A DNA stretch of 64,000 bases. It comes from Neospora caninum Liverpool. Taxonomy: Eukaryota; Apicomplexa; Conoidasida; Eucoccidiorida; Sarcocystidae. The stretch spans positions 620,001-684,000 of the forward strand of contig NC_018393.1 in NCBI RefSeq assembly GCF_000208865.1, read 5' to 3'. Positions within the stretch are counted from its first letter, which is position 1, and each line of letters starts with the position of its first letter. Shown one piece after another: positions 1-34,874 of this stretch. The translations under genes were made by a program, and so were the position numbers. Under the pieces are notes generated by a model. That model was not told where the DNA came from, did not search any database, and saw nothing but the letters and a program-made list of their open reading frames with translations.

Positions 1-3000
1 GAGTTGCCTGCCTTCCCTTGTGGCGCTTCTCCAGCAATTGCCAGTAGGAACGCTGCGGCCTGAAAGAGCCTCGGCGTGACGCGCACCGTCTCTTGTCCGT
101 GTATTGGTAGCGTCGTGGCGCCGGAGCGTCAGGTCTCCGAACCTCCACGGACGGCAGCGACAAAGGGAACACTGTCGAGCAGCGGCTGTAGATGGTGCGT
201 AGATTGTCAGGTGGTGTCCGAGCGCGTGTGGCGTCATGGGGGCAGGCCGAATAGGGGATGCGGGGAGCCACTGATCCAAGTGTTCTCTGCGCCAGTTGTG
301 TCCCATGCTTCTGCACAGAAGGCCGTACGCTGCGACGCTTGCTGGCGGACCTCTGCCACCACTTCTGCTCTAGCATACGACGGTTGCCTGCGGGAGGCTT
401 TGGTGTTGAGACTGAGAAGCAGTAGATGCGTCTCATGATAATTGTATGGGCGGGCGACGTTCTGTCATGAGCCGGGAGGAGGCGGGCGGGGCCGCGCCCA
501 TCTCTCACCAGGACGAAAACGGCCGAGTCGCCTGTGATACCTCGGCAAGTTATGTCACGGATTCGTGTTTTTGCCGAGACGCTGGGAGCCAGAACTGCTG
601 GACCGGAGACGGTGTGGAACTGGAGAGGGTGGTGAACGGAGTCGTTGAGGAGGGGTTCTGTGAATTTCCATTTTGCTTCCGGCCGGTGGGGAAGGAGACG
701 AGAAGCAAACAGGACTATGGCAGCCATGCTAGTTGCTTGCTCCTCTGACTGGAACAGACGCGTATTCCTTCGTATCTGGTATTTGGCTTTTACCTGCATC
801 CAACCAGTTATGTTTCGCGCCAGTGAGGCCCATCCTCATAGCGTCTGTCACTCGGCTTCGCACACACAATGCGACGTGATGCTACCGGTCCCAACAACCC
901 ATCCATGGGGAATGCGGATGGGGAGTCAACGCGGGTTGCGGCTCATATATATTAGGTGACTGAGGCAAGCGTGGGCGTCGGTGACGCTTGTGAAGACGCC
1001 GTCTACACCGCGTGTCTCCTAACATGTCGGTCCACTCGTTGCTGTTGATGTTTGAGAGATTGAATGCATGTCCACCGGGCATCGCAGAAGCGTTATAGAC
1101 GCGACTGTGCTGTGTCCGCTCTACGTTCGTAACCAGGACGAGGCTGTAGGGTCCTTGGGTCGTGCAGTGCTTGTGGGCCGCTGTAGTGTACGAGGTCTGC
1201 GGGGTCTCGTGTGGCTCCTCACAATAATCATAAACTCTTGCTGGAGCGTGATCGCGGCTACAGCTGCAGCAGCGACCAGAGTGTTGGCGTCGTGTTGGTT
1301 GTGGGGAGCGCGACTTTGTCCGTCAGCTGGCAGATACTCAGCGGGATCGTGCTGGCTGGGCGCTGGGGACGCGCGTCAGCGCGACTTGGTCCTACCACAC
1401 CACTTCCCATTCCTGAATGTTTTGCCTTGATTTTTTGGCGACTGGCCAGGATGGGGAGTGCCATACCAAAATGGTGATGTCGTCTGCTGGCGTTCCACAC
1501 GCCGTAGTGCTGGACGAAGGGCTGCATGCGTCGGTGGAGGGGCATCTGCATCCACGAGGCAGGTGACCGACGAAGACGGGTTCGGCTTCAGGAACTACCT
1601 GCCCGATCCTCCTTCCCGCTTCCGTCGGCATGCTGCGGTGATGTGGACCGTTGGAGTTGCCTGCCTTCCCTTGTGGCGCTTCTCCAGCAATTGCCAGTAG
1701 GAACGCTGCGGCCTGAAAGAGCCTCGGCGTGACGCGCACCGTCTCTTGTCCGTGTATTGGTAGCGTCGTGGCGCCGGAGCGTCAGGTCTCCGAACCTCCA
1801 CGGACGGCAGCGACAAAGGGAACACTCTCGAGCAGCGGCTGTTGAAGGTGCGTAGACTGCCAGGTGGTGTCCGAGCGCGTGTGGCGGCATGGGGGCAGGC
1901 CGAATAGGGGATGCGGGGAGCCACTGATCCAAGTATTCTCTGCGCCAGTTGTGTCCCATGCTTCTGCACAGACGGCCGAACGCTGCGACGCTTGCTGGCG
2001 GACCTCTGCCACCACTTCTGCCCTAGCATACGACGGTTGCCTGCGGGTGGTTTTGGTGTTGAGACTGAGAAGCAGTAGATGCGTGTCAGGATAATTGTAT
2101 GGGCGGGCGACGTTCTGTCATGAGCCGGGAGGAAGCGGGCGGGGCCGCGCCCATCTCTCACCACAACGAACACGTCGAGTTGCCTGTGATACCTCGGCAA
2201 GTTATGTCACGGATTTGTGTTTTTGCCGAGACACTGAGAGCCCGAATTGCTGGACCGGAGACAGTGGGAACCGCAGACGGTGGAGACGGGAGACGGTGGG
2301 AACCGCAGACGGTGGAGACCGGAGTCGTTGAGGAGGGGTTCTGTGAATTTCCATTTTGCTTCCGGCCGGTGGGGAAGGAGACGAGAAGCAAACAGGTCTA
2401 CGGCAGCCATGCTAGTTGCTTGCTCCTCTGACTGGAACAGACGCGTATTCCTTCGTATCTGGTATTTGGCGTTTACCTGCATCCAACCAGTTATGTTTCG
2501 CGCCAGTGATGCCCATCCTCATAGCGTCTGTCACTCGGCTTCGCACACACAATGCGACGTGATGCTGCCGGTCCCAACAACCCATCCATGGGGAATGCGG
2601 ATGGAGAGTCAACGCGGGTTGCGGCTCATATATATTAGGTGACTGAGGCAAGCGTGGGCGTCGGTGACGCTTGTGAAGACGCCGTCTACACAACGTGCCT
2701 CCTAACATGTCGGTCCACTCTCTGCTGTTGATGTTTGAGAGACTGAACGCATATCGACCTGAGATCGCAGAAGCGTTATAGACCTGACTGTGCTGTGTCC
2801 GCTCTTTGTTCGTAACCAGGACGAGGCTGTAGGGGCCTTGGGTCGTGCAGTGCTTGTGGGCCGCTGTGGTGTACGAGGTCTGCGGGGTCTCGTGTGGCTC
2901 CTCACAATAATCATAAACTCTTGCTGGAGCGTGATCGCGGCTACAGCTGCAGCAGCGACCAGAGTGTTGGCGTCGTGTTGGTTGTGGGGAGCGCGGCTGT

Positions 3001-6000
3001 CCGTCAGCTGGCAGATACTCAGCGGGATCGTGCTGGCTGGGCGCTGGGGACGCGCGTCAGCGCGACTTGGTCCTACCACACCACTTCCCATTCCTGAATG
3101 TTTTGCCTTGATTTTTTGGCGACTGGCCAGGATGGGGAGTGCCATACCAAAATGGTGATGTCGTCTGCTGGCGTCCCACACGCCGTAGTGCTGGACGAAG
3201 GGCTGCATGCGTCGGTGGAGGGGCATCTGCATCCACGAGGCAGGTGACCGACGAAGACGGGTTCGGCTTCAGGAACTACCTGCCCGATCCTCCTTCCCGC
3301 TTCCGTCGGCATGCTGCGGTGATGTGGACCGTTGGAGTTGCCTGCCTTCCCTTGTGGCGCTTCTCCAGCAATTGCCAGTAGGAACGCTGCGGCCTGAAAG
3401 AGCCTCGGCGTGACGCGCACCGTCTCTTGTCCGAGCATTGGAGGATTCGGGGCGCCGCAGCGTGATATCCCGGAACACATAGGCGCGGAAGCACCGAAGG
3501 GCAAACTCTCGAGCAGCGGCTGTAGATGGTGCGTAGACTGCCAGGTGGTGTCCGAGCGCGTGTGGCGTCATGGGGGCAGGCCGAATAGGGGTTGCGGGGA
3601 GCCACTGATCCAAGTGTTCTCTGCGCACGGTGTGTTCCATGCTTCTGCACAGACGGCCGTACGCTGCGACGCTTGCTGGCGGACTTCTGCCACTACTTCT
3701 GCTCTAGCATACGACGGTTGCCTGCGGGTGGTTTTGGTGTTGAGACTGAGAAACAGCAGATGCGTGTCATGATAATCGTATGGGCGGGCGGCGTCCTGTC
3801 ATGGGCCGGGAGGAGGCGGGCGAAGCTGCGCCCACCTCTCACCACGACGAACACGGTCGAGTCGCCTGTGATACCTCAGCTAATGATGTCACGGATTTGT
3901 GTTTTTGACGAGCCTCTGAGATTCCGAACTTCTGGCCTGGTGACGGTGGGAACCGCAGACGGTGGGGACCGGAGACTGTGGAGACCGGAGTTGTTGAGGA
4001 GGGGTTCTGTGAATTTCCATTTTGCTTCCGGCCGGTGGGGAAGGAGACGAGAAGCAAACAGGTCTACGGCAGCCATGCTAGTTGCTTGCTCCTCTGACTG
4101 GAACAGACGCGTATTCCTTCGTATCTGGTATTTGGCGTTTACCTGCATCCAACCAGTTATGTTTCGCGCCAGTGATGCCCATCCTCATAGCGTCTGTCAC
4201 TCGGCTTCGCACACACAATGCGACGTGATGCTGCCGGTCCCAACAACCCATTTATCAGGAATATGGATGGGGGATCAACGCGGGTTGCGGCTCATATATA
4301 TTAGGTGACTGAGGCACGCGTGGGCGTCGGTGACGCTTGTGAAGACGCCGTCTACACCACGTGCCTCCTAACATGTCGGTCCACTCTCTGCTGTTGATGT
4401 TTGAGAGACTGAACGCATATCGACCTGAGATCGCAGAAGCGTTATAGACCCGACTGTGCTGTGTCCGCTCTTTGTTCGTAACCAGGACGAGGCTGTAGGG
4501 GCCTTGGGTCGTGCAGTGCTTGTGGGCCGCTGTGGTGTACGAGGTCTGCGGGGTCTCGTGTGGCTCCTCACAATAATCATAAACTCTTGCTGGAGCGTGA
4601 TCGCGGCTACAGCTGCAGCAGCGACCAGAGTGTTGGCGTCGTGTTGGTTGTGGGGAGCGCGGCTTTGTTCGTCGGATGGCAGATACTCAGCGCGGTCGTG
4701 CTGGCTGGGCGCTGGGGACGCGCGTCAGCGCGACTTGGTCCTACCACACCACTTCCCATTCCTGAATGTTTTGCCTTGATTTTTTGGCGACTGCCGTAGA
4801 TGGCGAGTGCCATACCACAAGCTGTCATGCTGGACGAAGGGCTGCATGCGTCGGTGGAGGAGTATCTGCATCCACGAGGCAGGTGACCGACGAAGACGGG
4901 TTCGGCTTCAGGAACTACCTGCCCGATCCTCCTCCCCGCTTCCGTCGGAATGCTGCGGTGATGTGGACCGTTGGAGTTGCCTGCCTTCCCTTGTGGCGCT
5001 TCTCCAGCAATTGCCAGTAGGAACGCTGCGGCCTGGAAGAGCCTCGGCGTGACGCGCACCGTCTCTTGTCCGTGTATTGGTAGCGTCGTGGCGCCGGAGC
5101 GTCAGGTCTCCGAACCTCCACGGACGGCAGCGACAAAGGGAACACTGTCGAGCAGCGGCTGTAGATGGTGCGTAGACTGCCAGGTGGTGTCCGAGCGCGT
5201 GTGGCGTCATGGGGGCAGGCCGAATAGGGGATGCGGGGAGCCACTGATCCAAGTGTTCTCTGCGCAAGTTGTGTCCCATGCTTCTGCACAGAAGGCCGTA
5301 CGCTGCGACGCTTGCTGGCGGACCTCTGCCACCACTTCTGCCCTAGCATACGACGGTTGCCTGCGGGAGGCTTTGGTGTTGAGACTGAGAAACAGCAGAT
5401 GCGTGTCATGATAATTGTATGGGCGGGCGACGTTCTGTCATGAGCCGGGAGGAAGCGGGCGGGGCCGCGCCCATCTCTCACCACAACGAACACGTCGAGT
5501 TGCCTGTGATACCTCGGCAAGTTATGTCACGGATTTGTGTTTTTGCCGAGACACTGAGAGCCCGAATTGCTGGACCGGAGACGGTGGGAACCGCAGACGG
5601 TGGAGACGGGAGACGGTGGGAACCGCAGACGGTGGAGACCGGAGTCGTTGAGGAGGGGTTCTGTGAATTTCCATTTTGCTTCCGTCCGGTGGGGAAGGAG
5701 ACGAGAAGCAAACAGGTCTACGGCAGCCATGCTAGTTGCTTGCTCCTCTGACTGGAACAGACGCGTATTCCTTCGTATCTGATATTTGGCGTTTACCTGC
5801 ATCCAACCAGTTATGTTTCGCGCCAGTGAGGCCCATCCTCATAGCGTCTGTTACTCGGCTTCGCACACACAATGCGACGTGATGCTGCCGGTCCCAACAA
5901 CCCATCCATGGGGAATGCGGATGGGGAGTCAACGCGGGTTGCGGCTGATATATATTAGGTGACTGAGGCACGCGTGGGCGTCGGTGACGCTTGTGAAGAC

Positions 6001-9000
6001 GCCGTCTACACCACGTGTTTCCTAACATGTCGGTCCACTCGCTGCTGATGATGTTTGAGAGATTGGATGCATATCCACCGGGGATCGCAGAAGCATTATC
6101 GACCCGACTGTGATGTGTCCGCTCTTTGTTCGTAACCAGGACGAGGCTGTAGGGGCCTTGGGTCGTGCAGTGCTTGTGGGCCGCTGTAGTGTACGAGGTC
6201 TGCGGGGTCTCGTGTGGCTCCTCACAATAATCATAAACTCTTGCTGGAGCGTGATCGCGGCTACAGCTGCAGCAGCGACCAGAGTGTTGGCGTCGTGTTG
6301 GTTGTGGAGAGCGCGGCTTTGTCCGTCAGCTGGCAGATACTCAGCGGGATCGTGCTGGCTGGGCGCTGGTGAAGCGCGTCAGCGCGACGTGCTCCTACCG
6401 CACCACTTTCCATTCCTGAATGTTTTGCCTTGATTTTTTGGCGACTGCCGTAGATGGCGAGTGCCATACCACAAGCTGTCATGCTGGACGAAGGGCTGCA
6501 TGCGTCGGTGGAGGAGTATCTGCATCCACGAGGCAGGTGACCGACGAAGACGGGTTCGGCTTCAGGAACTACCTGCCCGATCCTCCTCCCCGCTTCCGTC
6601 GGAATGCTGCGGTGATGTGGACCGTTGGAGTTGCCTGCCTTCCCTTGTGGCGCTTCTCCAGCAATTGCCAGTAGGAACGCTGCGGCCTGGAAGAGCCTCG
6701 GCGTGACGCGCACCGTCTCTTGTCCGTGTATTGGTAGCGTCGTGGCGCCGGAGCGTCAGGTCTCCGAACCTCCACGGACGGCAGCGACAAAGGGAACACT
6801 GTCGAGCAGCGGCTGTAGATGGTGCGTAGACTGCCAGGTGGTGTCCGAGCGCGTGTGGCGTCATGGGGGCAGGCCGAATAGGGGATGCGGGGAGCCACTG
6901 ATCCAAGTGTTCTCTGCGCAAGTTGTGTCCCATGCTTCTGCACAGAAGGCCGTACGCTGCGACGCTTGCTGGCGGACCTCTGCCACCACTTCTGCCCTAG
7001 CATACGACGGTTGCCTGCGGGAGGCTTTGGTGTTGAGACTGAGAAACAGCAGATGCGTGTCATGATAATTGTATGGGCGGGCGACGTTCTGTCATGAATC
7101 GGGAGGAGGCGGGCGGGGCCGCGCCCATCTCTCACCACAACGAACACGTCGAGTTGCCTGTGATACCTCGGCAAGTTATGTCACGGATTTGTGTTTTTGC
7201 CGAGACACTGAGAGCCCGAATTGCTGGACCGGAGACGGTGGGAACCGCAGACGGTGGAGACGGGAGACGGTGGGAACCGCAGACGGTGGAGACCGGAGTC
7301 GTTGAGGAGGGGTTCTGTGAATTTCCATTTTGCTTCCGGCCGGTGGGGAAGGAGACGAGAAGCAAACAGGTCTACGGCAGCCATGCTAGTTGCTTGCTCC
7401 TCTGACTGGAACAGACGCGTATTCCTTCGTATCTGGTATTTGGCGTTTACCTGCATCCAACCAGTTATGTTTCGCGCCAGTGAGGCCCATCCTCATAGCG
7501 TCTGTTACTCGGCTTCGCACACACAATGCGACGTGATGCTGCCGGTCCCAACAACCCATCCATGGGGAATGCGGATGGGGAGTCAACGCGGGTTGCGGCT
7601 CATATATATTAGGTGACTGAGGCACGCGTGGGCGTCGGTGACGCTTGTGAAGACGCCGTCTACACCACGTGTTTCCTAACATGTCGGTCCACTCGCTGCT
7701 GATGATGTTTGAGAGATTGGATGCATATCCACCGGGGATCGCAGAAGCATTATCGACCCGACTGTGCTGTGTCCGCTCTTTGTTCGTAACCAGGACGAGG
7801 CTGTAGGGGCCTTGGGTCGTGCAGTGCTTGTGGGCCGCTGTAGTGTACGAGGTCTGCGGGGTCTCGTGTGGCTCCTCACAATAATCATAAACTCTTGCTG
7901 GAGCGTGATCGCGGCTACAGCTGCAGCAGCGACCAGAGTGTTGGCGTCGTGTTGGTTGTGGAGAGCGCGGCTTTGTCCGTCAGCTGGCAGATACTCAGCG
8001 GGATCGTGCTGGCTGGGCGCTGGTGAAGCGCGTCAGCGCGACGTGCTCCTACCGCACCACTTTCCATTCCTGAATGTTTTGCCTTGATTTTTTGGCGACT
8101 GCCGTAGATGGCGAGTGCCATACCACAAGCTGTCATGCTGGACGAAGGGCTGCATGCGTCGGTGGAGGAGTATCTGCATCCACGAGGCAGGTGACCGACG
8201 AAGACGGGTTCGGCTTCAGGAACTACCTGCCCGATCCTCCTTCCCGCTTCCGTCGGAATGCTGCGGTGATGTGGACCGTTGGAGTTGCCTGCCTTCCCTT
8301 GTGGCGCTTCTCCAGCAATTGCCAGTAGGAACGCTGCGGCCTGAAAGAGCCTCGGCGTGACGCGCACCGTCTCTTGTCCGTGTATTGGTAGCGTCGTGGC
8401 GCCGGAGCGTCAGGTCTCCGAACCTCCACGGACGGCAGCGACAAAGGGAACACTGTCGAGCAGCGGCTGTAGATGGTGCGTAGACTGCCAGGTGGTGTCC
8501 GAGCGCGTGTGGCGTCATGGGGGCAGGCCGAATATGGGATGCGGGGAGCCACTGATCCAAGTGTTCTCTGCGCAAGTTGTGTCCCATGCTTCTGCACAGA
8601 AGGCCGTACGCTGCGACGCTTGCTGGCGGACCTCTGCCACCACTTCTGCCCTAGCATACGACGGTTGCCTGCGGGAGGCTTTGGTGTTGAGACTGAGAAA
8701 CAGCAGATGCGTGTCATGATAATTGTATGGGCGGGCGACGTTCTGTCATGAATCGGGAGGAGGCGGGCGGGGCCGCGCCCATCTCGTACCACAACGAACA
8801 CGTCGAGTCGCCTGTGATACCTCGGCAAGTTATGTCACGGATTTGTGTTTTTGCCGAGACACTGAGAGCCCGAATTGCTGGACCGGAGACAGTGGGAACC
8901 GCAGACGGTGGAGACGGGAGACGGTGGGAACCGCAGACGGTGGAGACCGGAGTCGTTGAGGAGGGGTTCTGTGAATTTCCATTTTGCTTCCGGCCGGTGG

Positions 9001-10520
9001 GGGAAGGAGACGAGAAGCAAACAGGACTATGGCAGCCATGCTAGTTGCTTGCTCCTCTGACTGGAACAGACGCGTATTCCTTCGTATCTGATATTTGGCT
9101 TTTACCTGCATCCAACCAGTTATGTTTCGCGCCAGTGAGGCCCATCCTCATAGCGTCTGTTACTCGGCTTCGCACACACAATGCGACGTGATGCTGCCGG
9201 TCCCAACAACCCATCCATGGGGAATGCGGATGGGGAGTCAACGCGGGTTGCGGCTCATATATATTAGGTGACTGAGGCACGCGTGGGCGTCGGTGACGCT
9301 TGTGAAGACGCCGTCTACACCACGTGCCTCCTAACATGTCGGTCCACTCTCTGCTGTTGATGTTTGAGAGACTGAACGCATATCGACCTGAGATCGCAGA
9401 AGCGTTATAGACCCGACTGTGCTGTGTCCGCTCTTTGTTCGTAACCAGGACGAGGCTGTAGGGGCCTTGGGTCGTGCAGTGCTTGTGGGCCGCTGTAGTG
9501 TACGAGATCTGCGGGGTCTCGTGTGGCTCCTCACAATAATCATAAACTCTTGCTGGAGCGTGATCGCGGCTACAGCTGCAGCAGCGACCAGAGTGTTGGC
9601 GTCGTGTTGGTTGTGGAGAGCGCGGCTTTGTCCGTCAGCTGGCAGATACTCAGCGGGATCGTGCTGCCTGGGCGCTGGTGAAGCGCGTCAGCGCGACGTG
9701 CTCCTACCGCACCACTTCCCATTCCTGAATGTTTTGCCTTGATTTTTTGGCGACTGCCGTAGATGGCGAGTGCCATACCACAAGCTGTCATGCTGGACGA
9801 AGAGCTGCATGCGTCGGTGGAGGAGTATCTGCATCCACGAGGCAGGTGACCGACGAAGACGGGTTCGGCTTCAGGAACTACCTGCCCGATCCTCCTCCCC
9901 GCTTCCGTCGGAATGCTGCGGTGATGTGGACCGTTGGAGTTGCCTGCCTTCCCTTGTGGCGCTTCTCCAGCAATTGCCAGTAGGAACGCTGCGGCCTGAA
10001 AGAGCCTCGACGTGACGCGAACCGTCTCTTGTCCGTGTATTGGTAGCGTCGTGGCGCCGGAGCGTCAGGTCTCCGAACCTCCACGGACGGCAGCGACAAA
10101 GGGAACACTGTCGAGCAGCGGCTGTTGAAGGTGCGTAGACTGCCAGGTGGTGTCCGAGCGCGTGTGGCGTCATGGGGGCAGGCCGAATAGGGGATGCGGG
10201 GAGCCACTGAACCAAGTGTTCTCTGCGCACGGTGTGTCCCATGCTTCGGCACAGAAGGCCGTACGCTGCGACGCTTGCTGGCGGACCTCTGCCACCACTT
10301 CTGCCCTAGCATACGACGGTTGCCTGCGGGAGGCTTTGGTGTTGAGACTGAGAAACAGCAGATGCGTGTCATGATAATTGTATGGGCGGGCGACGTTCTG
10401 TCATGAATCGGGAGGAGGCGGGCGGGGCCGCGCCCATCTCTCACCACAACGAACACGTCGAGTTGCCTGTGATACCTCGGCAAGTTATGTCACGGATTTG
10501 TGTTTTTGCCGAGACGCTGA
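1..10520. repeat. Satellite class A sub-array, near-identical 1.64-1.68-kb units
   Basis: Six complete units start at the gagttgcctgcc landmark at positions 1, 1654, 3335, 4974, 6628 and 8282, with a seventh starting at 9937. Spacings are 1653, 1681, 1639, 1654, 1654 and 1655 bp. The units at about 4974-9936 differ by only a few bases per hundred or less, which means recent amplification or homogenisation. Class A is recognised by the gaagcaaacagg and cttgctcctctgac segments before the TA marker and by gcgaccagagtgttgg in the second half. No extra 565-bp block is present in this class. The seventh unit changes to class B text at about 10.5 kb. Confidence 0.9.
2257..2320. repeat. 32-bp internal duplication (ggagacggtgggaaccgc) in class A units
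   Basis: Two adjacent copies of a ggagac(a/g)gtgggaaccgc-type element start at 2257 and 2289. The same duplication is present in the units at about 5577, 7231 and 8885. The unit at about 3940 has a shorter, differently arranged form and the first unit (about 607) lacks it. It explains part of the length variation between class A units. Confidence 0.8.
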
Positions 10521-13297
10521 GAGCCAGCGCTGCCAGAGCGGATACGGCGGAGACCGGAGTCGTTGAGGCGGGGTTTTGTGAATTTGCATTTGGTCCCGGC
10601 TGGTGCTGAAGTAGACGGGAACCATGGGATGCTGGTGGCAGCCATGCTAGCAGGTATCTCGACGGAGCGGGCTACACGGTCTCCACTCGTGTCCTGGTCT
10701 TTAGCGTTTACCATCATTCATCCAATTCCGTTTCGCGCCAGTGATGCCGAGTCTCATGGAGCGTGTTCCTCGGCTTCGCGCACAAAATGCGATGTGACGG
10801 CTACCGGTTTCAATACATCCATGGCAAACTGCGGCCCAGGGGGCAACGGGTGTTGCGGCTCATATATATTAGGTTACTGTGGCAGCCACGCGCATATGTC
10901 ACGCTCGGGAGAACGCAGTTTTCACCACGGGTCTCTTAACATGTCGTTCCACTACTGCTGTCGACGAGAGATTGGATCCATATCGACAGGGCATTTCCGG
11001 AACATGATAGACCCGACTCTGTTGTGGCCGCTCGTTGTTCGTCATCACGAACAGGCAGTAGAAGCTGTGCCCATCTAGTGCTTGTGGACCCCTGCAGTGT
11101 ACCAGTCCTGCAAGTGTGTGTGTGTGTGTCTCTTGGGGTTCCTGTCAATGATCATAACCTGTTGCTGGAGAGAGATCTCGGCTACAGGTGCAGCAGCAAT
11201 CAGAGTGTTGGCGTCGTGTTCGTGGGGAACGCAGCTTTGCCCGTCGGATAGCAGATACGTAGCGCAGCCGCGCTGCCGGCGAAAGCGTGTTAATGTGCCT
11301 TGCTGCTACCGCACTCGTTTGCATGCTTGGGATTGCCTGAGCTTTTTGCCAACTGGCCTGGATGGAGAGTGCCGTACCAAAATGTTGATGTTATCTGCTG
11401 GCGTCCTACACGCCATCATCGTTGATGGGGGGTTGCTTGCCTCGATGCACCTGTTCTGCATCCACCAGGCAGGTGATCCACGACGACATTGTCGGCTTGA
11501 GCATTTACCTCCCTGATCCTTCTCGCTCGCGTCGCCATGCTGCGGTCATGTGGACGGTTGGAATGGCCGACCTTCCCGTGTGGTGATTCTCCAGAATTAT
11601 TCAGTAGGGACACAGCGGCTTGCAAGAGCCTGCGCGTTTCGTGCGCCATCACGTGTCCATTGATTGGTGGCATCTGGCCGACGCAGTGTCAGCTCGCGTT
11701 GCCTGGTTGGGCGTCAGGCAGCGACAGGGGGAACACTCTCGAGCAGCGGCTGTAGATGTTGCATAGATTGTCAGGTGGTGCCCGAGTGCGTGTGGCCGCA
11801 TGGGAGCAGGCCGAATAGGGGTTGTGGCACGCCACTGAAATACGTGGTCTCCGCGCACGGTGTGTCCCATGCTTCTGCACAGAAGGAGAGACGCTGCCAC
11901 ACTTACTGACGGGCGTCCGGCGCCTCTTCCGCTCTAGCATAAGACGGTGTCCTGCGGTTGACTTTGCCGTGCAGAATCAGAAGCAGTGGATGCGTGTCAA
12001 CATAACCGCATGGACGGGCGACATTCTCTCATGAATCGGGTGGAGGCAGGCGGGGCTCTGCCCATCTCTCACGACGACGAAGACGATCTAGTGGCATGTG
12101 ATAACTCGACTAGTCATGTCACGGATTTGTGTTTGCCGAGACGCTGAGAGCCAGTGCTGCCAGAGCGGATACGGCGGAGACCGGAGTCGTTGAGGCGGGG
12201 TTTTGTGAATTTGCATTTGGTCCCGGCTGGTGCTGAAGTAGACGGGAACCATGGGATGCTGGTGGCAGCCATGCTAGCAGGTATCTCGACGGAGCGGGCT
12301 ACACGGTCTCCACTCGTGTCCTGGTCTTTGGCGTTGACCCACATCCAACCAATTCCGTTTCGCGCCAGTGATGCCGAGTCTCATGGAGCGTGTTCCTCGG
12401 CTTCGCGCACAAATTGCGATGTGACGGCTACCGGTTTCGATACATCCATGGCAAACTGCGGCCCAGGGGGCAACGGGTGTTGCGGCTCATATATTTTAGG
12501 TTACTGTGGCAGCCATGCGCATATGTCACGCTCGGGAGGACGCAGTTTTCACCACGGGTCTCTTAACATGTCGTTCCACTACTGCTGTCGACGAGAGATT
12601 GGATCCATATCGACAGGGCATTTCCGGAACATGATAGACCCGACTCTGTTGTGGCCGCTTGTGTGTCGTATCCAGGACGAGGATGTAGGGACCGTGGGCC
12701 ACGCACTGCTTGTGGCCCTTTGTATTGTACGAGTTCTCCAGGTGTGTGTGTCGTGTACGGTTCCTCTCAATAATCGTAATTCTTGCAAGAGAGTCATCGC
12801 GCCCACAGCTGCAGCAGCAATCAGAGTGTTGGCGTTGTGTTTGTGCGGGAGCCCGTTTGGCCGTCGAATGGCCGATATGTAGTGCTGCTGGGTCGGCGGA
12901 CGCGCGTCAGTGCGGCTTGCTCGTCGAAATCTTTTCCATGCCTGACTTGCCTTCCTTTTTCTGTTGACTGGCCCGGTTGGAGAGTACAGTACCAAAATGT
13001 TGGTGTCGTTCGTCTGGTGGCGTCCCACACGGCGTCGTGATGGACGACGCGCTGCGCGCCTTGGTGCAGGGGGATCTGCATCCACCAGCCGGGTGATCCA
13101 CGAAGGCAGGTTAGGCTTGAGCAACTACCTGACTGATCCTTCTCTCTCCCGTCGGCAGGCTGCGGTGATGTCGACCGTTGCAATGGCCGGCCCTCCCGTG
13201 TTGTGGTTCTGCGGGAATCTTCAGTAAGCACACTGCGGCGTACATGAGCCTGAGTGTCTCGTGCGCCGTCTTGTGTCCTTGTGTTTGTGGCATCTGG

Positions 13298-23114: not shown

Positions 23115-23679
23115 GCGCCGCAGAGTCTCCTGTGGTTCCTTACAACGATCATAAACGCTTGCTAGAGAGTGATGGCGGCTACAGCTGCAGCAGCAATCAG
23201 AGTGTCGGCGGCGTGTTTGTGGGGAGCGCGGCTTTGCCCGTTGGATGGGAGATACCCAGCGCGGCCGTGCTGCCGGGTGAAGCGCGTCATTGCGCATTGC
23301 ACATCTTACCCTTTTCCATGCCTGATTTGGCTTCATTTCTTCTGCCGACTGGCGTAGCCGGTGAGTGCAGTACCAAAATGTTGATGGCGTTCGTCTGGAT
23401 GGCGTCTCTCACGGCGTCGTGATGGACTAGGGGTTGCGCGCCTTGGTGCAGGGAAATCTGTATCCACCAGCCGGGTGATCCACGAAGGCAGGTTAGGCTT
23501 GAGCAACTACCTGACTGATCCTTCTCTCTCCCGTCGGCAGGCTGCGGTGATGTCGACCGTTGCAATGGCCGGCCCTCCCGTGTTGTGGTTCTGCGGGAAT
23601 CTTCAGTAAGCACACTGCGGCGTACATGAGCCTGAGTGTCTCGTGCGCCGTCTTGTGTCCTTGTGTTTGTGGCATCTGG
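23115..23679. repeat. Extra satellite block 4 (565 bp), first of a doublet
   Basis: Begins at gcgccgcagagtctcctg and is directly followed by another block with the same start. Together they give the 2760-bp marker interval 22,301-25,061, which is a basic unit plus two blocks. Confidence 0.85.
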
Positions 23680-24250
23680 GCGCCGCAGAGTCTCCTGTGG
23701 TTCCTCACAACGATCATAAACTCTTGCTAGAGAGTGATGGCGGCTACAGCCGCAGCAGCAATCAGAGTGTCGGCGGCGTGATGGTTGTGGAGAGCGCGGC
23801 TTTGCCCGTCGGATGGGAGATACCCAGCGCGGCCGTGCTGCCGGGTGAAGCGCGTCATTGCGCATTGCACATCTTACCCTTTTCCATGGCTGATTTGGCT
23901 TCATTTCTTCTGCCGACTGGCGTAGACGGTGAGTGCAGTACCAAAATGTTGATGGCGTTCGTCTGGGTGGCGTTCCTCACGGCGTCGCGCTGGCCTAAGG
24001 ATTGCATGGCTTGGTACAGAGGATTTTACATCCACGAGCCATGTCGCCCACGACTTATGACGGGCTCGGCTTAAGGAACTACGTGCCTGGTCTTCCTCAC
24101 TCCCGTCGCCATGTTGCGGTGAGGTGGACCGTTCGGATTCCCGACCTTCCCGTATGGTGCTTCTACAGCTAACTGGAATAGGGGCACTGCGGCTTGCAAG
24201 AGCATGCGGGTTTCGTGCGCCGTCTCGTGTCCATCGATTGGTGGCATCTG
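23680..24250. repeat. Extra satellite block 5 (571 bp), second of a doublet
   Basis: Near-identical to the block at 13,298-13,869, including an unusual agcatgcgggtttcg variant near its right end. The right boundary is a gccgacgcagtgtcag variant. Confidence 0.85.
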
Positions 24251-27200
24251 GCCGACGCAGTGTCAGCTCGCGTTGCCTGGTGGGGGCATCAGGCAGCGAC
24301 GGGGGGAACACTTACGAGCAGCGGCTGTAGATGTTGCATCGATTTTCGGGTGGCGTCCGAGTGCGTGTGGCCGCATGGGGGCAGGCCAAATAGGGGCTGT
24401 GGGGAGCTACTGATCCAAGTGTTCTCCGCGCACGGTGTGTCCCATGCTTCTGCACAGAAGGAGGGACGCTGCGACGCTGACTGGTGGCCGTCCTCCACCT
24501 CCTCGGCTCTAGCATACGACGGTGTCGTGCGGGTGACTTTGCTGTGGAGAGTGGGAAGCCGTGGAGACTGAGCAGCCGTGCATGCGTGTCAACATAATCG
24601 TATGTACGGGAGAGGTTTTGTCGTGAGTTAGGTGGAGGGGGAAGGGGTTCTGCCCGTCTATCGCGACGACGAAGACGATCTAGTGGCATGTGATAACTCG
24701 ACTAGTCGTGTCACGGATTTGTGTTTTTGCCGAGACGCTGAGGTCCAGCGCTGCCAGAGTGGATACGGCGGAGACCGGAGTCGTTGAGGCGGGGGTTTGT
24801 GAATTTGCATTTGGTCCCGGCTGGTGGGGGGGGAACCATGGGATACTGGTGGCAGCCTGCTAGGCGGTGTCTCGACGGAGCGGGCTACACGGTCTCCACT
24901 CGTGTCCTGGTCTTTGGCGTTGACCCACATCCAACCAATTCTGTTTCGCGCCAGTGATGCCGAGTCTCATGGAGCGTGTTCCTCGGCTTCGCGCACAAAT
25001 TGCGATGTGACGGCTACCGGTTTCAATACATCCATGGCAAACTGCGGCCCAGGGGGCAACGGGTGTTGCGGCTCATATATATTAGGTTACTGTGGCAGCC
25101 ATGCGCATATGTCACGCTCGGGAGAACGCAGTTTTCACCACGGGTCTCTTAACATGTCGTTCCACTACCTGCTGTCGACGAGAGATTGGATCCATATCGA
25201 CAGGGCATTTCCGGAACATGATAGACCCGACTCTGTTGTGGCCGCTCGTTGTTCGTCATCACGAACAGGCAGTAGAAGCTGTGCCCATCTAGTGCTTGTG
25301 GACCCCTGCAGTGTACCAGTCCTGCAAGTGTGTGTGTGTGTGTCTCTTGGGGTTCCTGTCAATGATCATAACCTGTTGCTGGAGAGAGATCTCGGCTACA
25401 GGTGCAGCAGCAATCAGAGTGTTGGCGTCGTGTTCGTGGGGAACGCAGCTTTGCCCGTCGGATAGCAGATACGTAGCGCAGCCGCGCTGCCGGCGAAAGC
25501 GTGTTAATGTGCTTTGCTGCTACCGCACTCGTTTGCATGCTTGGGATTGCCTGAGCTTTTTGCCAACTGGCCTGGATGGAGAGTGCCGTACCAAAATGTT
25601 GATGTCGTCTGTTGGCGTCCTTCACGCCATCATCGTTGATAGAGGGTTTCTTGTCTCGATGCGCCTGTTCTGCATCCACGAGGCATGTGATCCACGAAGA
25701 CAGGTACGGCTTGAGCAACTACCTGCCTGGTCGTCCTCACTCCCGTCGACATGAAGCGGTGATGTGCACCGTTGGAATGCCCGACCCTCCCGTGTGGTGC
25801 TTCTCCGTCTCACGGGAATAAGGACACTGCGGCTTGCAAAAGCCTGCGTGTTTCGTGTGCCGTCTCGTGTCCATTGATTGGTGGCATCTGGGCGACGCAG
25901 TGTCAGCTCGGGTTGCCTGGTGGGGGCATCAGGCAGCGAGAGGGGGAACACTCTCGAGCAGCGCCTGTAGTTGTTGCATCGATTTTCGGGTGGCGTCCGA
26001 TAGCATGTGGGCACATGCGGGCACGCCGAATAGGAGTCGAGGCGAGCCACTGAACTAAGTGTTCCACGTGGAGATCTGTCGCATGCTTAGGCACAGTCGG
26101 GCGTACGCTGTGACGCTTACTAGCGAGCGTCTGCCACATCTTCTGCTCTAGCATACGACGGTTTCCTGCGGGTGGCTTTGCCGTGGGGACTGAGAAGCAG
26201 TAGATGCGTATCACATATATTCACGCGTACGAGCGACGTTCGGTCATGACTCGGGTGGAGGCCGGGCGGGGTTCTGCGGGTCTCTCGCCACGACAAACAC
26301 GATCTGGTAGCATGTGATATCTCGGCTAGTCACGTCACGGATTTTTGTTTGCCGAGGCGCTGAGAGCCAGCGCTGCCAGACCGGCGACGGCGGAGACCGG
26401 AGACGTTGAGGAGGGGGTTTTGTGAATTTGCTTATTGGTCCCGACCGGTGGCGAAAGAGACGAGAAGCATACAGGTCTATGGGCGCCATGCTAGCTGCTT
26501 GCTCGTCTGACCGGAACAGACGCGTATTCGCTCGTATCCGGTATATGGCGTTTACCAGCATCCAACCAGTTATGTTTCGCGCCAGTGAGGCCCATCCTCA
26601 TAGCGTCTGTTACTCGGCTTCGCACACACAATGCGACGTGATGCTACCGGTCCTAGCACATCCACGGGGAATGCGGATCGGGGGGCAACGCGAGTTGCGA
26701 CTCATTATATTATGCGAATGTGGCAAACATATTCCTCGATGACGGGTGCGAAGGCGTTGCCCACACTACGGGTCTCTTAACATGTCGGTGCACTCGCTGC
26801 TGTTGACGAGAGATTGGATCCATATCGACCGGGGATCCCAGGAGCATTATAGGCCCGACTCTGCTGTCTCCGCTCTTTGTTCGTAATCAGGACGAAGATG
26901 TAGGGACTTTGGGCTACGCTCGGCTCGTGGCCCTCTGTAGCGTACGAGTCCTGCAGGTGTGTGTGTGTCTCCTGTGGTTCCTCTCATTGATCGTAAACTC
27001 TTGGTGTAGAGTGATGCCGGGTACAGCTGCAGCAGCAATCAGAGTGGTGGCGGTGTGTTTATGGGAGCGCAGCTTTGCCCGTCGGATAGCAGATACCCAA
27101 CACAGCCGTGCTGGAGGCGGAGGCACGTCTGTGCGCCTTGCTTGTCGATCGCCTTTCCATATGTGACTTGCCTTGATTTCTTTTGGCCGACTGGCCTGGA

Positions 27201-27516
27201 TGGAGGGTGCAGTACCAGATTGTTGATGTCGTCTGCTGGCGTCCCACATGGCATCGTGATGGTTGAAGGGTTACATGCCTTGGTGCAGGGGATTCTGCAT
27301 CCAGCAGGCATGTGCTCTGCGAAGAGGGGTTCCGCTTAAACAACTGCTTGCCTGGTCCACATGACTCCCATCGAGACGCGGCGCCGGTGTGGACCGCTGA
27401 AATGGCCGGTCGTCCCACTCGATGCTTCTCCAGCGAGTATCAGTAGGGATACTGCAGCGTGCAACACTCTCCGCGTTTCGTGCGCCGTCTTGTGTCTTTG
27501 TTTTTGTGACATCTGG

Positions 27517-28075
27517 GCGCCGCAGAGTCTCCTGTGGTTCCTCTCAATGATCATAACCTGTTGCTGGAGAGAGATCTCGGCTACAGGTGCAGCAGCAATC
27601 AGAGTGTTGTCGTCGTGTTCGTGGGGAACGCAGCTTTGCCCGTCGGATAGCAGATACGTAGCGCAGCCGCGCTGCCGGCGAAAGCGTGTTAATGTGACTT
27701 GCTGCTACCGCACTCGTTTGCATGCTTGGGATTGCCTGAGCTTTTTGCCAGCTGGCCTGGATGGAGAGTGCAGTGCCAAAATATCGGGCTGCATGCTGGC
27801 GTCCCACACGCCATCATGGTTGATGGGGGGTCTCTTGTCTCGATGCACCTGTTCTCAGTCCACCAGGCAGGTGATCCACGAAGACAAGGACGGCTTAGGC
27901 AACTACCGGCCTGATCCTCCTCGCTCCCGTCGACATGCTGCGGTGATGTGGACCGTTGGAATGGCCGGCCTTCCTGTGTGGTGGTTCTGCAGCTAGGTTC
28001 AGTAGGAACACTGCGGCCTGCAAGAGCCTCGCCGTCTCGCGGGCCGTCTCGTGTCCGTGGGCCTGTGGCACCTGG
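27517..28075. repeat. Extra satellite block 6 (559 bp), first of a triplet
   Basis: First of three consecutive blocks in the 3307-bp marker interval. Its left part carries the cataacctgttgctgg version otherwise found in the class B patch. Much of it (from about 27,555) matches the sequence at 31,950-32,460 at a distance of 4397 bp. Confidence 0.8.
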
Positions 28076-28641
28076 GCGACGCACAGTCTCGTTTGGTTCC
28101 TCACAATAATCATAAACTCTTGCTGGAGAGTGGCCGCGGCTACAGGTGCAGCAGCAATAAGAGTGTCGGCGTCGTGTTTGTGGGGAGCGCCGCTTTGCCC
28201 GTCGGATGGCAGATACTCAGCGCAGCTGTGCTCCTTGGGGCGCTGGGAAAGCGCGTCAGTGCGACCTGCTCCTACCCCAACCTTTTCCGTCTTCGCGACT
28301 GTCTTCCTATTTTGCCGCCCGGCCGGGATGGAGAGCGCAGTACTCAAATGGTGAGGTCGCTTTGGCGTCCCACACGCCGTCTTACTCGATAAGGGGTTGC
28401 ATGCCCCGATGCAAGTGTTCTGCACTCACCCGGAAGGCGATCCACGAAGAGGGGTTCCGCTTAAACAACTGCTTGCCTGGTCCACATGACTCCCGTCGAG
28501 ACGCGGCGCCGCTGTGGACCCCTGAAATTGCCGGTCGTCCTATGTGGTGCTTGTCCAGCATTCATCAGTAGGGATACTGCGGGGTGCAAGACCCTGCGCG
28601 TTTCGTGCGCCGTCCTGTGTCCGTGGATTTGTGACATCTGG
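28076..28641. repeat. Extra satellite block 7 (566 bp), second of a triplet
   Basis: Begins at the gcgacgcacagtctcg variant of the boundary landmark and ends at gcgccgcagggtctcc. Its interior differs clearly from the blocks on either side, so the triplet is not three fresh copies of one block. Confidence 0.8.
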
Positions 28642-29205
28642 GCGCCGCAGGGTCTCCTGGGGTTCTTCTCAATAATCATAAACTCTTGCTGGGGAGTGAT
28701 CGCGGTTACGGCTGCAGCAGCAATCAGCGTGTTGGCGTCGTGTCTGTAGGGGCGCCGGTTTTCCCGTCGGATGGCAGATACTCAATGCAGCCGTGATTCC
28801 GGGGGAAGCCCGTCTGTGCCGCTTGCTTGTCGAACGCCTTTCCATGCCTAACAGGCCTTCCTTTTTGTGCCGACTGGTGTAGACGGTGAGTGCAGTACCA
28901 AAATGGTGATGCCGGTCGTCCGGTGGCGTCCCACACGGCGTCGTGATGGACGAAGGGTTGCACGCCTTGGTGCAGGGGATACTGCATCCACCAGATATGT
29001 GATCTGCAACGACGGGTTCGGATTCAGCAACTAACTGCCTGAGCGTCCTCGCTCGAGTCGACATGAAGCGTTGACGTGTGCACCGTTGCAATGCCCGACC
29101 TTCCCATGTGGTGCTTCTCCAGCTGTCGAGAGTATGGACACTGCGGCTTGCAAGAGCCTGCGCTTTTCGTGGGCCTTCTCGTGTCCATCGATTGGTGGTA
29201 TCCGG
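28642..29205. repeat. Extra satellite block 8 (564 bp), third of a triplet
   Basis: Begins at gcgccgcagggtctcctg and ends at gcgacgcagtgtcag, where the ordinary unit resumes. It contains the cagcagcaatcagcgtgtt variant of the conserved segment. Confidence 0.8.
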
Positions 29206-32200
29206 GCGACGCAGTGTCAGCTCGCGTTGCCTGGTGGGGGCGTCAGGTAGCGACAGGAGGAACACTCCCGAGCGGCGCCTGTAGTTGTTGCATCGATTTT
29301 CGGGTGGGGTCCGAGGGAGTGTGGCCGCACTAGGGCACGCTGAATAGGGGTTGTGGCGAGCCACTGAACTAAGTGTTCTTCTGTCAATGCTTCGGCACAG
29401 TCGAGCCTACGCTGTGAAGCTTACTAGCTAGCGTCTGCCACATCTTCTGCTCTAGCATACGACGTTTTCCTGCGGGTGACTTTGCCGTGGAGACTGAGAA
29501 GCAGTAGATGCGTATCACATATATTCACACGTACGAGCGACGTTCGGTCATGAATCGGGTGGAGGCCGGGCGGGGTTCTGCGGGTCTCTCGCCACGACAA
29601 ACACGATCTGGTAGCATGTGATATCTCGGCTAGTCACGTCACGGATTTTTGTTTGCCGAGGCGCTGAGAGCCAGCGCTGCCAGACCGGCGACGGCGGAGA
29701 CCGGAGACGTTGAGGAGGGGGTTTTGTGAATTTGCATTGGTCGCGGCCGGTTCTGAAGGGGACCACGAGCACTGAATGCTGGTGGCAACCAAGCTAGCAG
29801 GTATCTCGCCGGACCGGGCCAGACGGGTTTCCACTCGTCTCCAGGTATTTGGCGTTTACTAGATACCATTCAATTACGGTTCGCGGCAAGGATGCCCATT
29901 TCCTTGGAGTCTGTTACCTGGCTTCGCGCACGCAGTCACTTGTGAGGGCTGCCAGTCCTGACACATCCATGACACACTGTGGCTCAGGAGTCCACTGGTG
30001 TTGCGGCTCATATACATTAGGTGACTGTGTCAAGCATATGGGCGTCAGCAACGCTTGGGAAGACACCATCGACACCACAGGTCTGTTAACATGCCATTCC
30101 GCTGGCTGCTAGTCGACGAGAGATTGGATCCATATCGACAGGGCATTTCCGGAACATGATAGACCCGACTCTGTTGTGGCCGCTCGTTGTTCGTCATCAC
30201 GAACAGGCAGTAGAAGCTGTGCCCATCTAGTGCTTGTGGACCCCTGCAGTGTACCAGTCCTGCAAGTGTGTGTGTGTGTGTCTCTTGGGGTTCCTGTCAA
30301 TGATCATAACCTGTTGCTGGAGAGAGATCTCGGCTACAGGTGCAGCAGCAATCAGAGTGTTGGCGTCGTGTTCGTGGGGAACGCAGCTTTGCCCGTCGGA
30401 TGGGAGATACTCAGCGCGGCCGTGATTCCGGGGGAAGCGCGTCATTGTGCATTGCACATCTTACCCTTTTCCATGCCTGATTTGGCTTCGTTTCTTCTGC
30501 TGACTGGCGTAGCCTGTGAGTGCAGCACCAAAATGTTGATGGCGTTCGTCTGGGTGGCGTCTCTCACGGCGTCGTGATGGACTAGGGGTTGCACGCCTTG
30601 GTGCAGAGGATTCTGCTTCCACGAGACATGTGACCCACGACTTCCGACGGCCTCGGCTTATGCAACTACCTGCCGGGTCGTCGTCACTCGCGTGAACATG
30701 GTGCGGCGATGCGGACCGTTGGGATGCCTGGCCCTCCCGTTTGGTGCTTCTCCATCTAACTGGAATAGGAACACAGCGGCTTGCAAGAGCCTGTGCCTTT
30801 CGTGCGCGGTCTCGTGTCCATCGATTGGTGGCATCCGGGCGACGCAGTGTCAGCTCGCGTTGCCTGGTGGGGGCGTCAGGCAGCGACAGGGGGAACACTC
30901 TCGAGCAGCGCCTGTAGATGTTGCATCGATTTTCGGGTGGCGTCCGAGGGCGTGTGGGCCCATGAAAGCAGGCCGAATAGGGGTTGTGGCGAGCCCCTGA
31001 TCCGAGTGTTCTCCGCGGAAGTTGTGTCCCATGCTTGTGCACAGAAGGGAGTACGCTGCGATGCTGACTGGCGGGCGTCCGCCAGCTCTTCTGTTCTAGC
31101 ATACGACGGTTTGCTGCGGGTGGCTTTGCCGTGGGGACTGAGAAGCAGTAAATGCGTGTCATCATAATCGTATGGACGGGTCAGGTTCTGCCATCAGTTA
31201 GGTGGAGGGCAGATGGGGCGGGCTCTGTCCATCTCTCACGACGACAAAGACGATCTAGAGGCATGTGATCACTCGACTAGTCATGTCACGGATTTGTGTT
31301 TGCCGAGACGCTGAGAGCCAGCGCTGCCGGACCGGCGATGGTGGAGACCGGAGTCGTTCAGGCGGACTTTTGTGAATTTGCATTTTGGTCGCAGCCGGTT
31401 CTAAAGGGGACCACGAGCACTGAATGCTGGTGGCAACCAAGCTAGCAGGTATCTCGCCGGACCGGTCTAGCGGGTATCCACTCGTCTCCAGGTATTTGGC
31501 GTTTACTATCTACCATTCAATTACGGTTCGCGGCAACGGTGCCCATCCTCATGGAGTCGGTTACTCGGCCTCGCGCATGTAATGCGTTGTGAGGGCTGCC
31601 AGTCCTAACGCACCCATGGCAAACTGCGGCTCGGTGGGCAACTGGTGTTGCGGCTCATATACATTAGGTGACTGAGCCAAACATATGCGTCGACGGCGTG
31701 TCCCAAGGCGTTCCCTACACTACGTGTCTCTGAACATGTCGCTCCACTCGCTGCTGTCGACGAGAGATTGGATCCATATCGACAGGGCATTTCCGGAACA
31801 TGATAGACCCGACTCTGTTGTGGCCGCTCGTTGTTCGTCATCACGAACAGGCAGTAGAAGCTGTGCCCATCTAGTGCTTGTGGACCCCTGCAGTGTACCA
31901 GTCCTGCAAGTGTGTGTGTGTGTGTCTCTTGGGGTTCCTGTCAATGATCATAACCTGTTGCTGGAGAGAGATCTCGGCTACAGGTGCAGCAGCAATCAGA
32001 GTGTTGGCGTCGTGTTCGTGGGGAACGCAGCTTTGCCCGTCGGATAGCAGATACGTAGCGCAGCCGCGCTGCCGGCGAAAGCGTGTTAATGTGCCTTGCT
32101 GCTACCGCACTCGTTTGCATGCTTGGGATTGCCTGAGCTTTTTGCCAGCTGGCCTGGATGGAGAGTGCAGTGCCAAAATATCGGGCTGCATGCTAGCGTC

Positions 32201-32471
32201 CCACACGCCATCATGGTTGATGGGGGGTCTCTTGTCTCGATGCACCTGTTCTCAGTCCACCAGGCAGGTGATCCACGAAGACAAGGACGGCTTAGGCAAC
32301 TACCGGCCTGATCCTCCTCGCTCCCGTCGACATGCTACGGTGATGTGGACCGTTGGAATGGCCGGCCTTCCTGTGTGGTGGTTCTGCAGCTAGGTTCAGT
32401 AGGAACACTGCGGCCTGCAAGAGCCTCGCCGTCTCGCGGGCCGTCTCGTGTCCGTGGACTTGTGGCACCTG

Positions 32472-33016
32472 GGCGACGCACAGTCTCGTTCGGTTTTTCT
32501 CAATAATCATAAACTCTTGCTGGAGAGTGGTCGGGGCTACAGGTGCAGCAGCAATCACAGTATTGGCTCAGGTTTTCCCGTCGGATGGCAGATACGTGGC
32601 GCAGCCGTGATTCCGGGGGAAGCCCTTCTGTGCGGCTTGCTCGTCAAACATCTTTCCATGCCTCGCTTGTCTTCCTTTTTGTGCCTGCTGTCGTAGACGG
32701 TGAGTGCAGTACCAAATGGTGATGTCGTTCGTCCGGTGGCGTCCGACACGGCGTCGTGCTGGACGAAGGGTTGCACGCCTTGGTGCAGAGCCTTCTGCAT
32801 CCACGAGGCATGTGATCCACGACGACGGCCTCAGCTGAGGGAACTCCCTGCCTGGTGCCCCTCACTCCCGTCGACCTGAAACGGTGCTGTGAACCGGTGG
32901 AATGCCCGACCTTCCCACGTGGTGCTTCTCCAGATATCGAAAGTATGGACACTGCGGCTTGCAAGAGCCTGCGCGTTTCGTGCGCCGTCTCGTGTCCACT
33001 GATTGGTGGCATCTGG
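32472..33016. repeat. Extra satellite block 9 (545 bp)
   Basis: Begins at gcgacgcacagtctcg and ends at gcgacgcagtgtcag. It is about 20 bp shorter than the others because of an internal deletion near 32,560-32,580, where the tgttggcgtcgtg text is missing. It accounts for the 2178-bp interval 31,653-33,831. Confidence 0.8.
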
Positions 33017-34874
33017 GCGACGCAGTGTCAGCTCGCGTTGCGTGGTGGGGGCATCAGGCAGCGACAAAGGGGACACTGTCGAGCAGCAGCGGCTGTAGAT
33101 GTTGCATCGATTTCCTGGTGGCGTGCGCGTGCACGTGGGCGCATGAGGGCACGCCAAATAGGGGTTGTGGCGAGCGACTGAACTAAATGTTCTCTGCGCA
33201 CGATCTGTCGCATGCTTCTGCAACAAAGGCGGTACGCTGCGACGCTGACTGGCGGGCGTCCGCCACCTCTTCGGCTCTAGCATACGGCGGTTTCCCGCGG
33301 GTGCGTTTGCCGTGGAGACTGAGAAGCGTGGATGCGTACAACACATATTCCCACAGATGAGCGACGTTCGGTCATGAATCGGGTGGAGGCCAGGCGGGGT
33401 TCTGCGGGTCTCTCGCCACGACAAACACGATCTGGTAGCATGTGAAATCTCGGCTAGTCATGACACGGATTTTTGTTTGCCGAGGCGCTGAGAGCCAGCG
33501 CTGCCAGACCGGCGACGGCGGAGACCGGAGTCGTTCAGGGGGGGTTCGGTGAAATTGCATTTTGGTCGCAGCCGGTTCTGAAGGAGACGGGGAGCACTGA
33601 ACGCTGGTGGCACCCGTGCTAGCCAGTGCGTCGCCGGACCGAGCTAGACGGGTTTCCACTCGGATCCTGGTATTTGGCGTTTACTAGCAACAATTCACTG
33701 ACGGTTCGCGGCAAGGATGCCCATGTTCGCGGAGTCTGTGACCTGGCATCGCCCACACATTGCAATGTGGGAGCTGCCAGTCCTGACACACCCATGACAA
33801 ACCGCGCCTCAGGGGAAACCTGGTGTTGCGGCTCCTTTATAGTAGGCGACTGTAGCGATACGGGCATCAGCGAGGCTTCTGAAGACACTGTCGACACCAC
33901 GGGTCTCTTAACATGTCGTTCCACTACCTGCTGTCGACGAGAGATTGGATCCATATCGACAGGGCATTTCCGGAACATGATAGACCCGACTCTGTTGTGG
34001 CCGCTCGTTGTTCGTCATCACGAACAGGCAGTAGAAGCTGTGCCCATCTAGTGCTTGTGGACCCCTGCAGTGTACCAGTCCTGCAAGTGTGTGTGTGTCT
34101 CTTGGGGTTCCTCTCAATGATCATAACCTGTTGCTGGAGAGAGATCTCGGCTACAGGTGCAGCAGCAATCAGAGTGTTGGCGTCGTGTTCGTGGGGAACG
34201 CAGCTTTGCCCGTCGGATAGCAGATACGTAGCGCAGCCGTGATTCCGGGGGAAGCCCGTCTGTGCGGCTTGCTCGTCGAACGGTTTTCCATGCCTGACTT
34301 GCCTTGCTTTTTTTGTGCCGACTGGCCTGGATGGAGAGAGCAGTACCAAATGGTGATGTCGTTCGTCCGGTGGCGTCCGACGCGCCGTCGTGCTGGACAA
34401 AGGGTTGCACGCCTTGGTGCAGAGCCTTCTGCATCCACGAGGCATGTGATCCACGACTTCCGACGGCCTCGGCTTATGCAACTACCTGCCGGGTCGTCGT
34501 CGCTCGCGTGAACATGGTGCGGCGATGCGGACCGTTGGGATGCCTAACCCTCCCGTTTGGTGCTTCTCCATCTAACTGGAATAGGGACACAGCGGCTTGC
34601 AAGAGCCTGCGCCTTTCGTGCGCGGTCTCGTGTCCATCGATTGGTGGCATCCGGGCGACGCAGTGTCAGCTCGCGTTGCCTGGTGGGGGCGTCAGGCAGC
34701 GACGGGGGGAACACTCACGAGCAGCGGCTGTAGATGTAGCAACGATTTTCGGGTGGCGTCCGAGTGCGTGTGGCCGCATGGGGGCAGGCCGAATAGGGGT
34801 TGTGGGGAGCTACTGATCCAAGTGTTCTCCGCGCACGGTGTGTCGCATGCTTCTGCAACAAAGGCGGTACGCTG

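Follow-up and report, generated by a model that had tools for sequence, protein, structure and literature searches.

An Apparently Non-Coding Nested Tandem Repeat of Neospora caninum with Unit Lengths in One-Block Steps

Introduction

Nested tandem repeats are a general class in which one repeat lies inside another and the inner copy number varies. In alpha-satellite-type higher-order repeats, unit lengths are quantised, and the variants are explained by unequal crossing-over. The closest parallel to the array described here is the intergenic-spacer subrepeats of rDNA in plants and Daphnia; in both systems, a tandem unit varies in length with its internally repetitive part (PMC3036644, PMC5260122, PMC4691072). 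In the cited parts of these papers, the length variation of the rDNA spacer is discussed as unequal crossing-over and gene conversion. Among the parasites of the same group, satellite DNA is represented by Sat350 and Sat529 of Toxoplasma and Neospora (passages in PMC2877743 and PMC9498087). The genome of N. caninum likewise contains the tandem repeat Nc5, with units of ~1.0–1.2 kb, at the start of contig C3 (C3:1-5000).

The array analysed here is on contig C8, and its right-hand part lies in the window, which is the whole stretch of 64,000 nucleotides at C8:620001-684000. It is unlike rDNA arrays in that the window contains no rRNA match, the block is 0.56 kb long and the copies of the block are highly diverged. 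Assignment to rDNA was rejected, as no Rfam family matched within the window at the gathering score. Unlike in alpha-satellite, blocks make up only a part of the unit, and the spacer has no detectable homology to them. Compared with nested tandem repeats generally, the array is distinct in that a domain without inner repeats adjoins a domain with them at a single switch.

Four published Sat350 and Sat529 primers, compared as primer sequences only, had at the fewest 7–10 mismatches to the array, as did shuffled primers. Membership in Nc5 was rejected because the Nc5 loci have no BLAST match in the array at E 0.01. A 44-bp Nc5-like piece matches the left flank of the array (C8:579841-579884, 82%). 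The nested Nc5 primer Np6, as given in the cited part of PMC6238813, has three exact matches in the genome, all at the start of C3, and its reversed control has none. The Np6 matches point to Neospora caninum; against that species, the primer Np21plus has no genome match at up to 2 mismatches. The wider Toxoplasma/Neospora group is indicated by at least 150 matches to the SAG domain (PF04092) among the 150 of 359 candidates that were scored, versus 0 of 14 control genomes. The species is thus very probable, and the strain less so. No published description of the array was recognised in a partial literature search, which included portions of PMC9498087, PMC12690857, PMC3310773 and PMC4395442.

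Location and Extent of the Array

The searched assembly consists of 57,546,354 bases in 14 contigs. The array occupies the following positions:

C8:591524-654877, one orientation: the whole tandem array, 63.35 kb, by self-BLAST repeat coverage
Window 1..34877, + strand: the array part within the window, the right-hand 34.9 kb, by self-BLAST coverage and block matches

An earlier note, made from the window, had described a satellite at positions 1–34,874. This extent holds for the window, and the array continues 28.5 kb leftward beyond it, to C8:591524, within the 60 kb of left flank examined. The left end of the array is inside a block and the right end is in a spacer. Self-BLAST of the array revealed no inverted copies.

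A query of one block against the whole genome found at least 45 matches, this type of count being a lower bound, and every one of them is within C8:591584-654663. Two patterns of 27–28 bases match 34 and 24 times, exclusively within the array, and their controls have 0 matches. Because the matches of the block query and of the patterns are confined to the array, it is one locus among the placed contigs, which make up the searched set.

On the + strand, G exceeds C and T exceeds A throughout the array and ~5 kb beyond it (window 1-39000). An exon-like frame ~15 kb to the right of the array (window 50067-50630, + strand) contains a Sin3 co-repressor domain (PF08295, 31.6 bits, cut-off 25). Window 1-4000 has no match in the plasmid collection.

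Unit Anatomy and Stepped Lengths

Segmentation by 44 block landmarks divides the array into 35 units, U01 to U35, which are arranged head to tail in one orientation. The basic unit of 1.65 kb is composed of a spacer of ~1.09 kb and a block of 0.56 kb. U01–U23, the left domain, have one block each. U24–U35, the right domain, have 1, 2, 2, 2, 1, 1, 3, 1, 4, 1, 2 and 1 blocks. The extra blocks are confined to the right domain (window ~10.5–34.9 kb), where 6 of the 12 units have them, versus 0 of 23 in the left domain. The main features in the window are listed below; the block ends are approximate (start + ~560).

Window 1..10486, + strand: end of the left domain, the tail of U17 and then U18–U23, one block each, ~1.65 kb, by segmentation and pairwise identity
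Window 11128..11687, + strand: U24, single block with a (GT)n tract before it
Window 12749..13867, + strand: U25, two blocks, A-type from 12749 and B-type from 13308
Window 14942..16060, + strand: U26, two blocks from 14942 and 15501
Window 17129..18247, + strand: U27, two blocks from 17129 and 17688
Window 22566..24250, + strand: U30, three blocks from 22566, 23125 and 23690, being A, B/A chimera and B
Window 26967..29212, + strand: U32, four blocks from 26967, 27527, 28086 and 28652
Window 31924..33042, + strand: U34, two blocks from 31924 and 32483
Window 34097..34656, + strand: U35, the last single block

Among the 34 intervals from first block to first block, all 28 of the one-block intervals are 1612–1688 bp long, with a mean of 1649.5 bp; the mean of those in the right domain is 1629.0 bp. 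Two-block units are 2173–2193 bp (n = 4), the three-block unit is 2776 bp and the four-block unit is 3313 bp. Over the right-domain mean, each extra block adds 544–573.5 bp in 6 of 6 multi-block units, and the block pitch within these units is 559–566 bp. The claim that unit length is quantised, with an excess made of extra blocks of ~565 bp, is thus borne out. In self-alignment, the long intervals hold the repeated inner segment and no unrelated insertions.

Neighbouring units within U18–U23 are 94–99% identical. A third level of repeat is seen in the left-domain spacers as a 16/32-bp minisatellite (window 2253-2324, 5573-5644, 7227-7298 and 8881-8952). It probably accounts for the indels of 16, 32 and 48 bp that are seen when neighbouring left units are compared.

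Coding Capacity and Possible Function

The left units share a minus-strand frame of 201 aa. It can be read through, with no frameshift, in 6 of 23 left units, including its source, and in 0 of 11 right units, U35 being dropped for its too short match. Substitutions at codon positions 1, 2 and 3 number 208, 380 and 293 in the left domain and 506, 544 and 453 in the right domain; with no excess at the third position, this is not a coding pattern. Of the 56 indels that separate adjacent left units, only 7 have lengths divisible by 3. In nearly all of the 34 units examined, the longest stop-free frame is longer than the average from 20 mononucleotide shuffles, and in several it exceeds the shuffle maximum, which would favour coding. 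Neither the 201-aa frame nor two other frames of the array have a Pfam match. A tandem family of protein genes was rejected on the few open copies and the codon positions. Searches with Rfam at the gathering score and for tRNA found no match in the window.

Between the left and right domains, identity ranges over 51–83% in the spacer and 54–83% in the block, and no island of sharp conservation is seen. Two patches stand out among the right units. At spacer positions 900-1000, they are 93–96% identical to one another and 73–74% identical between domains. At positions 400-550, the values are 89–93% and 58–78%. As the patches are only weakly alike between domains, we read them as recent homogenisation, not constraint.

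These comparisons bear on the idea that the array is a functional chromosome element, such as a centromere, a nucleator of heterochromatin or a source of non-coding RNA, with its block number under selection. Its presence at a single locus in the placed contigs would fit such an element. Sat350 and Sat529 of Toxoplasma are heterochromatic and have low-abundance small RNAs, evidence that the authors, in the part cited, call correlative (PMC2877743). The lack of a conserved island in either spacer or block is against a functional element, and the highest peak of the right domain looks like homogenisation; we consider this explanation unlikely. Judged from its sequence, the array probably has no sequence-specific function. 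Maintenance by recombination alone is the most likely reading.

The Domain Boundary and Mosaic Spacers

Spacers were typed as left or right with 22 left and 7 right spacers, S32–S35 being dropped. The typing places the boundary as follows:

Window 10486..10516, + strand: domain boundary, switch from left-type to right-type within spacer S24, from 212 diagnostic sites

Among the diagnostic sites of S24, 62 are left-type, 147 right-type and 3 neither, and 7 are misplaced at the best breakpoint. This single clean switch indicates that homologous exchange brought the two domains together, or that one was converted up to this point. Mosaic spacers are not limited to S24: S25 has a left-type stretch at its end, and most of S32 is a mixture. 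U32 (window 26402-29706) has diverged strongly, with a spacer that mixes left and right types; the region at window ~26.48–26.7 kb is 92–93% identical to left-domain units, and the flanking tiles are 79–85% identical.

It can be speculated that the exchanges cluster at the (GT)n tract on the 5' edge of the block, in a long-lived recombination-prone locus, and that this tract gives rise to the homogenised patch and also to the misalignments by one block. Tiles over the tract are mostly 97–100% identical among the P-type units (U24, U28, U31, U33 and U34); the spacer before it in U33 and U34 mostly reaches 77–89%. Against such a hotspot, the patch is absent from A-type units and from U32, and right next to the tract, at spacer positions 1000-1050, the mean identity of the right domain is down to 79%. 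We hold the hotspot to be unlikely. If it were true, block number would be a fast strain marker.

A Chimeric Block in U30

Block 2 of U30 (U30b2) has a best single relative of 85.2% identity, versus 97.3% for a two-part model that joins U26b2 to U25b1. The position of the switch is approximate:

Window 23437..23456, + strand: recombination switch in U30 block 2, from the order of diagnostic sites, B-type on the 5' side and U25 block-1 (A) type on the 3' side

The number of misplaced diagnostic sites depends on the B parent: 8 of 142 with U26b2, 12 of 139 with U27b2 and 9 of 144 with U25b2, for which the best break is slightly further 5'. With U26b2, the union-bound p is 1.1e-29 per triple and 2.1e-27 after correction for 190 parent pairs; the weakest of the three B parents gives 2.2e-24 and 4.2e-22. 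In FastTree phylogenies of 21 right blocks and 3 of the 23 left blocks, the 5' part of U30b2 is inside the B clade (0.961), and its 3' part is sister to U25b1 (0.990).

For tiles of U25, the offset of the best match in U30 moves from 9817 to 10382 at the chimera switch, a step of 565 bp; the step was taken from the tiles of U25 and U26. By the U25 tiles, the exchanged tract continues through the next block and ~150 bp into the spacer. This indicates that misaligned recombination between units alters block number as a side effect. We infer that crossover, rather than long-tract gene conversion, made U30, although the data fit both.

Could the chimera be a product of assembly, through false joins between near-identical repeats that give chimeric units or wrong counts? 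As described in the part of PMC3310773 cited, published Nc-Liv has 61.0 Mb in all, 14 chromosomes and 343 unassigned contigs, was assembled by PHRAP from ~8x Sanger reads, and has its supercontigs ordered on T. gondii chromosomes. This method, if the array comes from published Nc-Liv, would favour an artefact, as would an N gap of 100 bases 12 kb left of the array and the identity of up to 99% among left units. However, the longest identical run shared by the parent blocks of U30 is 13 bases around the switch (alignment columns 270-400) and 19 bases over the whole block, so that an assembler could hardly join reads there; a single read should span the switch, and most right-domain units are diverged enough to be told apart. 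An artefact is thus improbable. The number and order of the left units are uncertain.

Other blocks of the right domain give mosaic signals as well. Each of the 21 blocks was compared with 190 parent pairs, triples with fewer than 30 informative sites being dropped and the displayed pair being picked by identity. Twelve blocks are at the permutation floor (p 5e-5; 0.0095 after 190 pairs), and U32b2, U27b2 and U28b1 are also below 0.05 after correction, although these signals are not independent events. The remaining six are without signal after correction: U26b1, U30b1 (p 1.0), U25b2 (0.076), U30b3 (0.073), U29b1 (0.004) and U35b1 (0.004). In nearest-block painting, the single block of U33 starts out closest to P-type blocks and continues closest to B-type, as expected of a reciprocal product; its best two-part model by identity is U30b2 followed by U35b1, which differs from this painting. 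The block of U35 is painted as P-type, then U34b2/U32b4-like and then U33b1-like, which is not significant after correction. Only one change of copy number, from 2 to 3 blocks in U30, is reconstructed in detail, and the four-block U32 is too diverged to trace.

Origin and Age of the Extra Blocks

Adjacent blocks within a unit are only 72–75% identical in 7 of 9 pairs. The chimeric nature of U30b2 explains the higher values of the other two pairs, U30b1-b2 (83%) and U30b2-b3 (85%). Blocks at the same position in different units are up to 95–99% identical. The low identity of adjacent blocks indicates that the extra blocks are old, not fresh amplifications.

All nine internal block junctions are at one shared point, CGCA[G/C][A/G]|GTCTC. 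This common breakpoint implies that one duplication was probably inherited and reshuffled, and we suggest a single founding block duplication. In the left units compared, the block carries GGTCTC at both edges, a brief common motif that may have been used by the founding duplication. Conversion could have homogenised the junctions, which is an argument against a single duplication.

Independent recent duplications of blocks in separate units by replication slippage, without exchange between units, would account for neighbouring units that differ in block number, but hardly for the coincident breakpoint or for adjacent blocks so much less alike than same-position blocks across units, and they are very unlikely. 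The earlier note had proposed a sub-segment that amplifies independently of the unit containing it. The hierarchy and the separate variation of block and unit numbers stand, whereas independent amplification is too strong a wording in view of the old extra blocks, their shared breakpoint and the exchange tract of U30.

Class of Repeat

Head-to-tail repetition holds for both the outer unit, with its 35 copies, and the inner segment, with 1–4 blocks per unit. When searched with a profile of the 44 blocks, the 34 trimmed spacers give no match even at E 10, and shuffled spacers gave two matches (E 3.1 and 6.5). The two halves of the spacer do not match each other, the best E being 0.88. With a spacer that has no detectable homology to the block, the array is to be classed as a nested tandem repeat, not as a multi-monomer higher-order repeat. 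A higher-order repeat of ~550-bp monomers, in which the basic unit would be a trimer and the longer units 4-, 5- and 6-mers of one ancestral monomer, is suggested by arithmetic (1650/3, 2185/4, 2776/5 and 3313/6 are all ~550) but is most improbable, as the blocks match 0 of 34 spacers, the spacer halves do not match each other and low-stringency self-BLAST offsets below 1450 bp occur only within multi-block units (8 of 8 rows). On these comparisons, the array is a nested tandem repeat at one locus and is apparently non-coding.

Discussion

The array probably evolved as follows. A 1.65-kb unit of spacer and block would have been tandemly amplified, and in the ancestor of the right domain the block would have been duplicated within the unit at the shared junction. 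Misaligned homologous recombination in the register of the unit would then change the number of units and homogenise neighbours. Recombination out of register by one block would yield units of 1, 2, 3 and 4 blocks as well as chimeric blocks, and the trace seen in U30 would be left by a crossover between two units that had paired block 2 with block 1. Unit length would be quantised because the homology that permits misalignment comes in one-block steps.

We have high confidence in this explanation as a whole, that is, a nested repeat, a founding block duplication and later misaligned recombination. Its directly supported parts are the anatomy, the shared junction, the chimeric block with its one-block offset step, the boundary switch and the lack of a conserved frame.

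The process is already known, and the array leaves the understanding of satellite evolution unchanged; it is a well-preserved real example. Since the block types are ~26% diverged, the point of exchange can be placed within ~20–30 bp, which homogeneous satellites do not allow. The array is an unusually readable record of nested-repeat evolution. If block number varies between isolates of N. caninum, it may also be a possible length marker.
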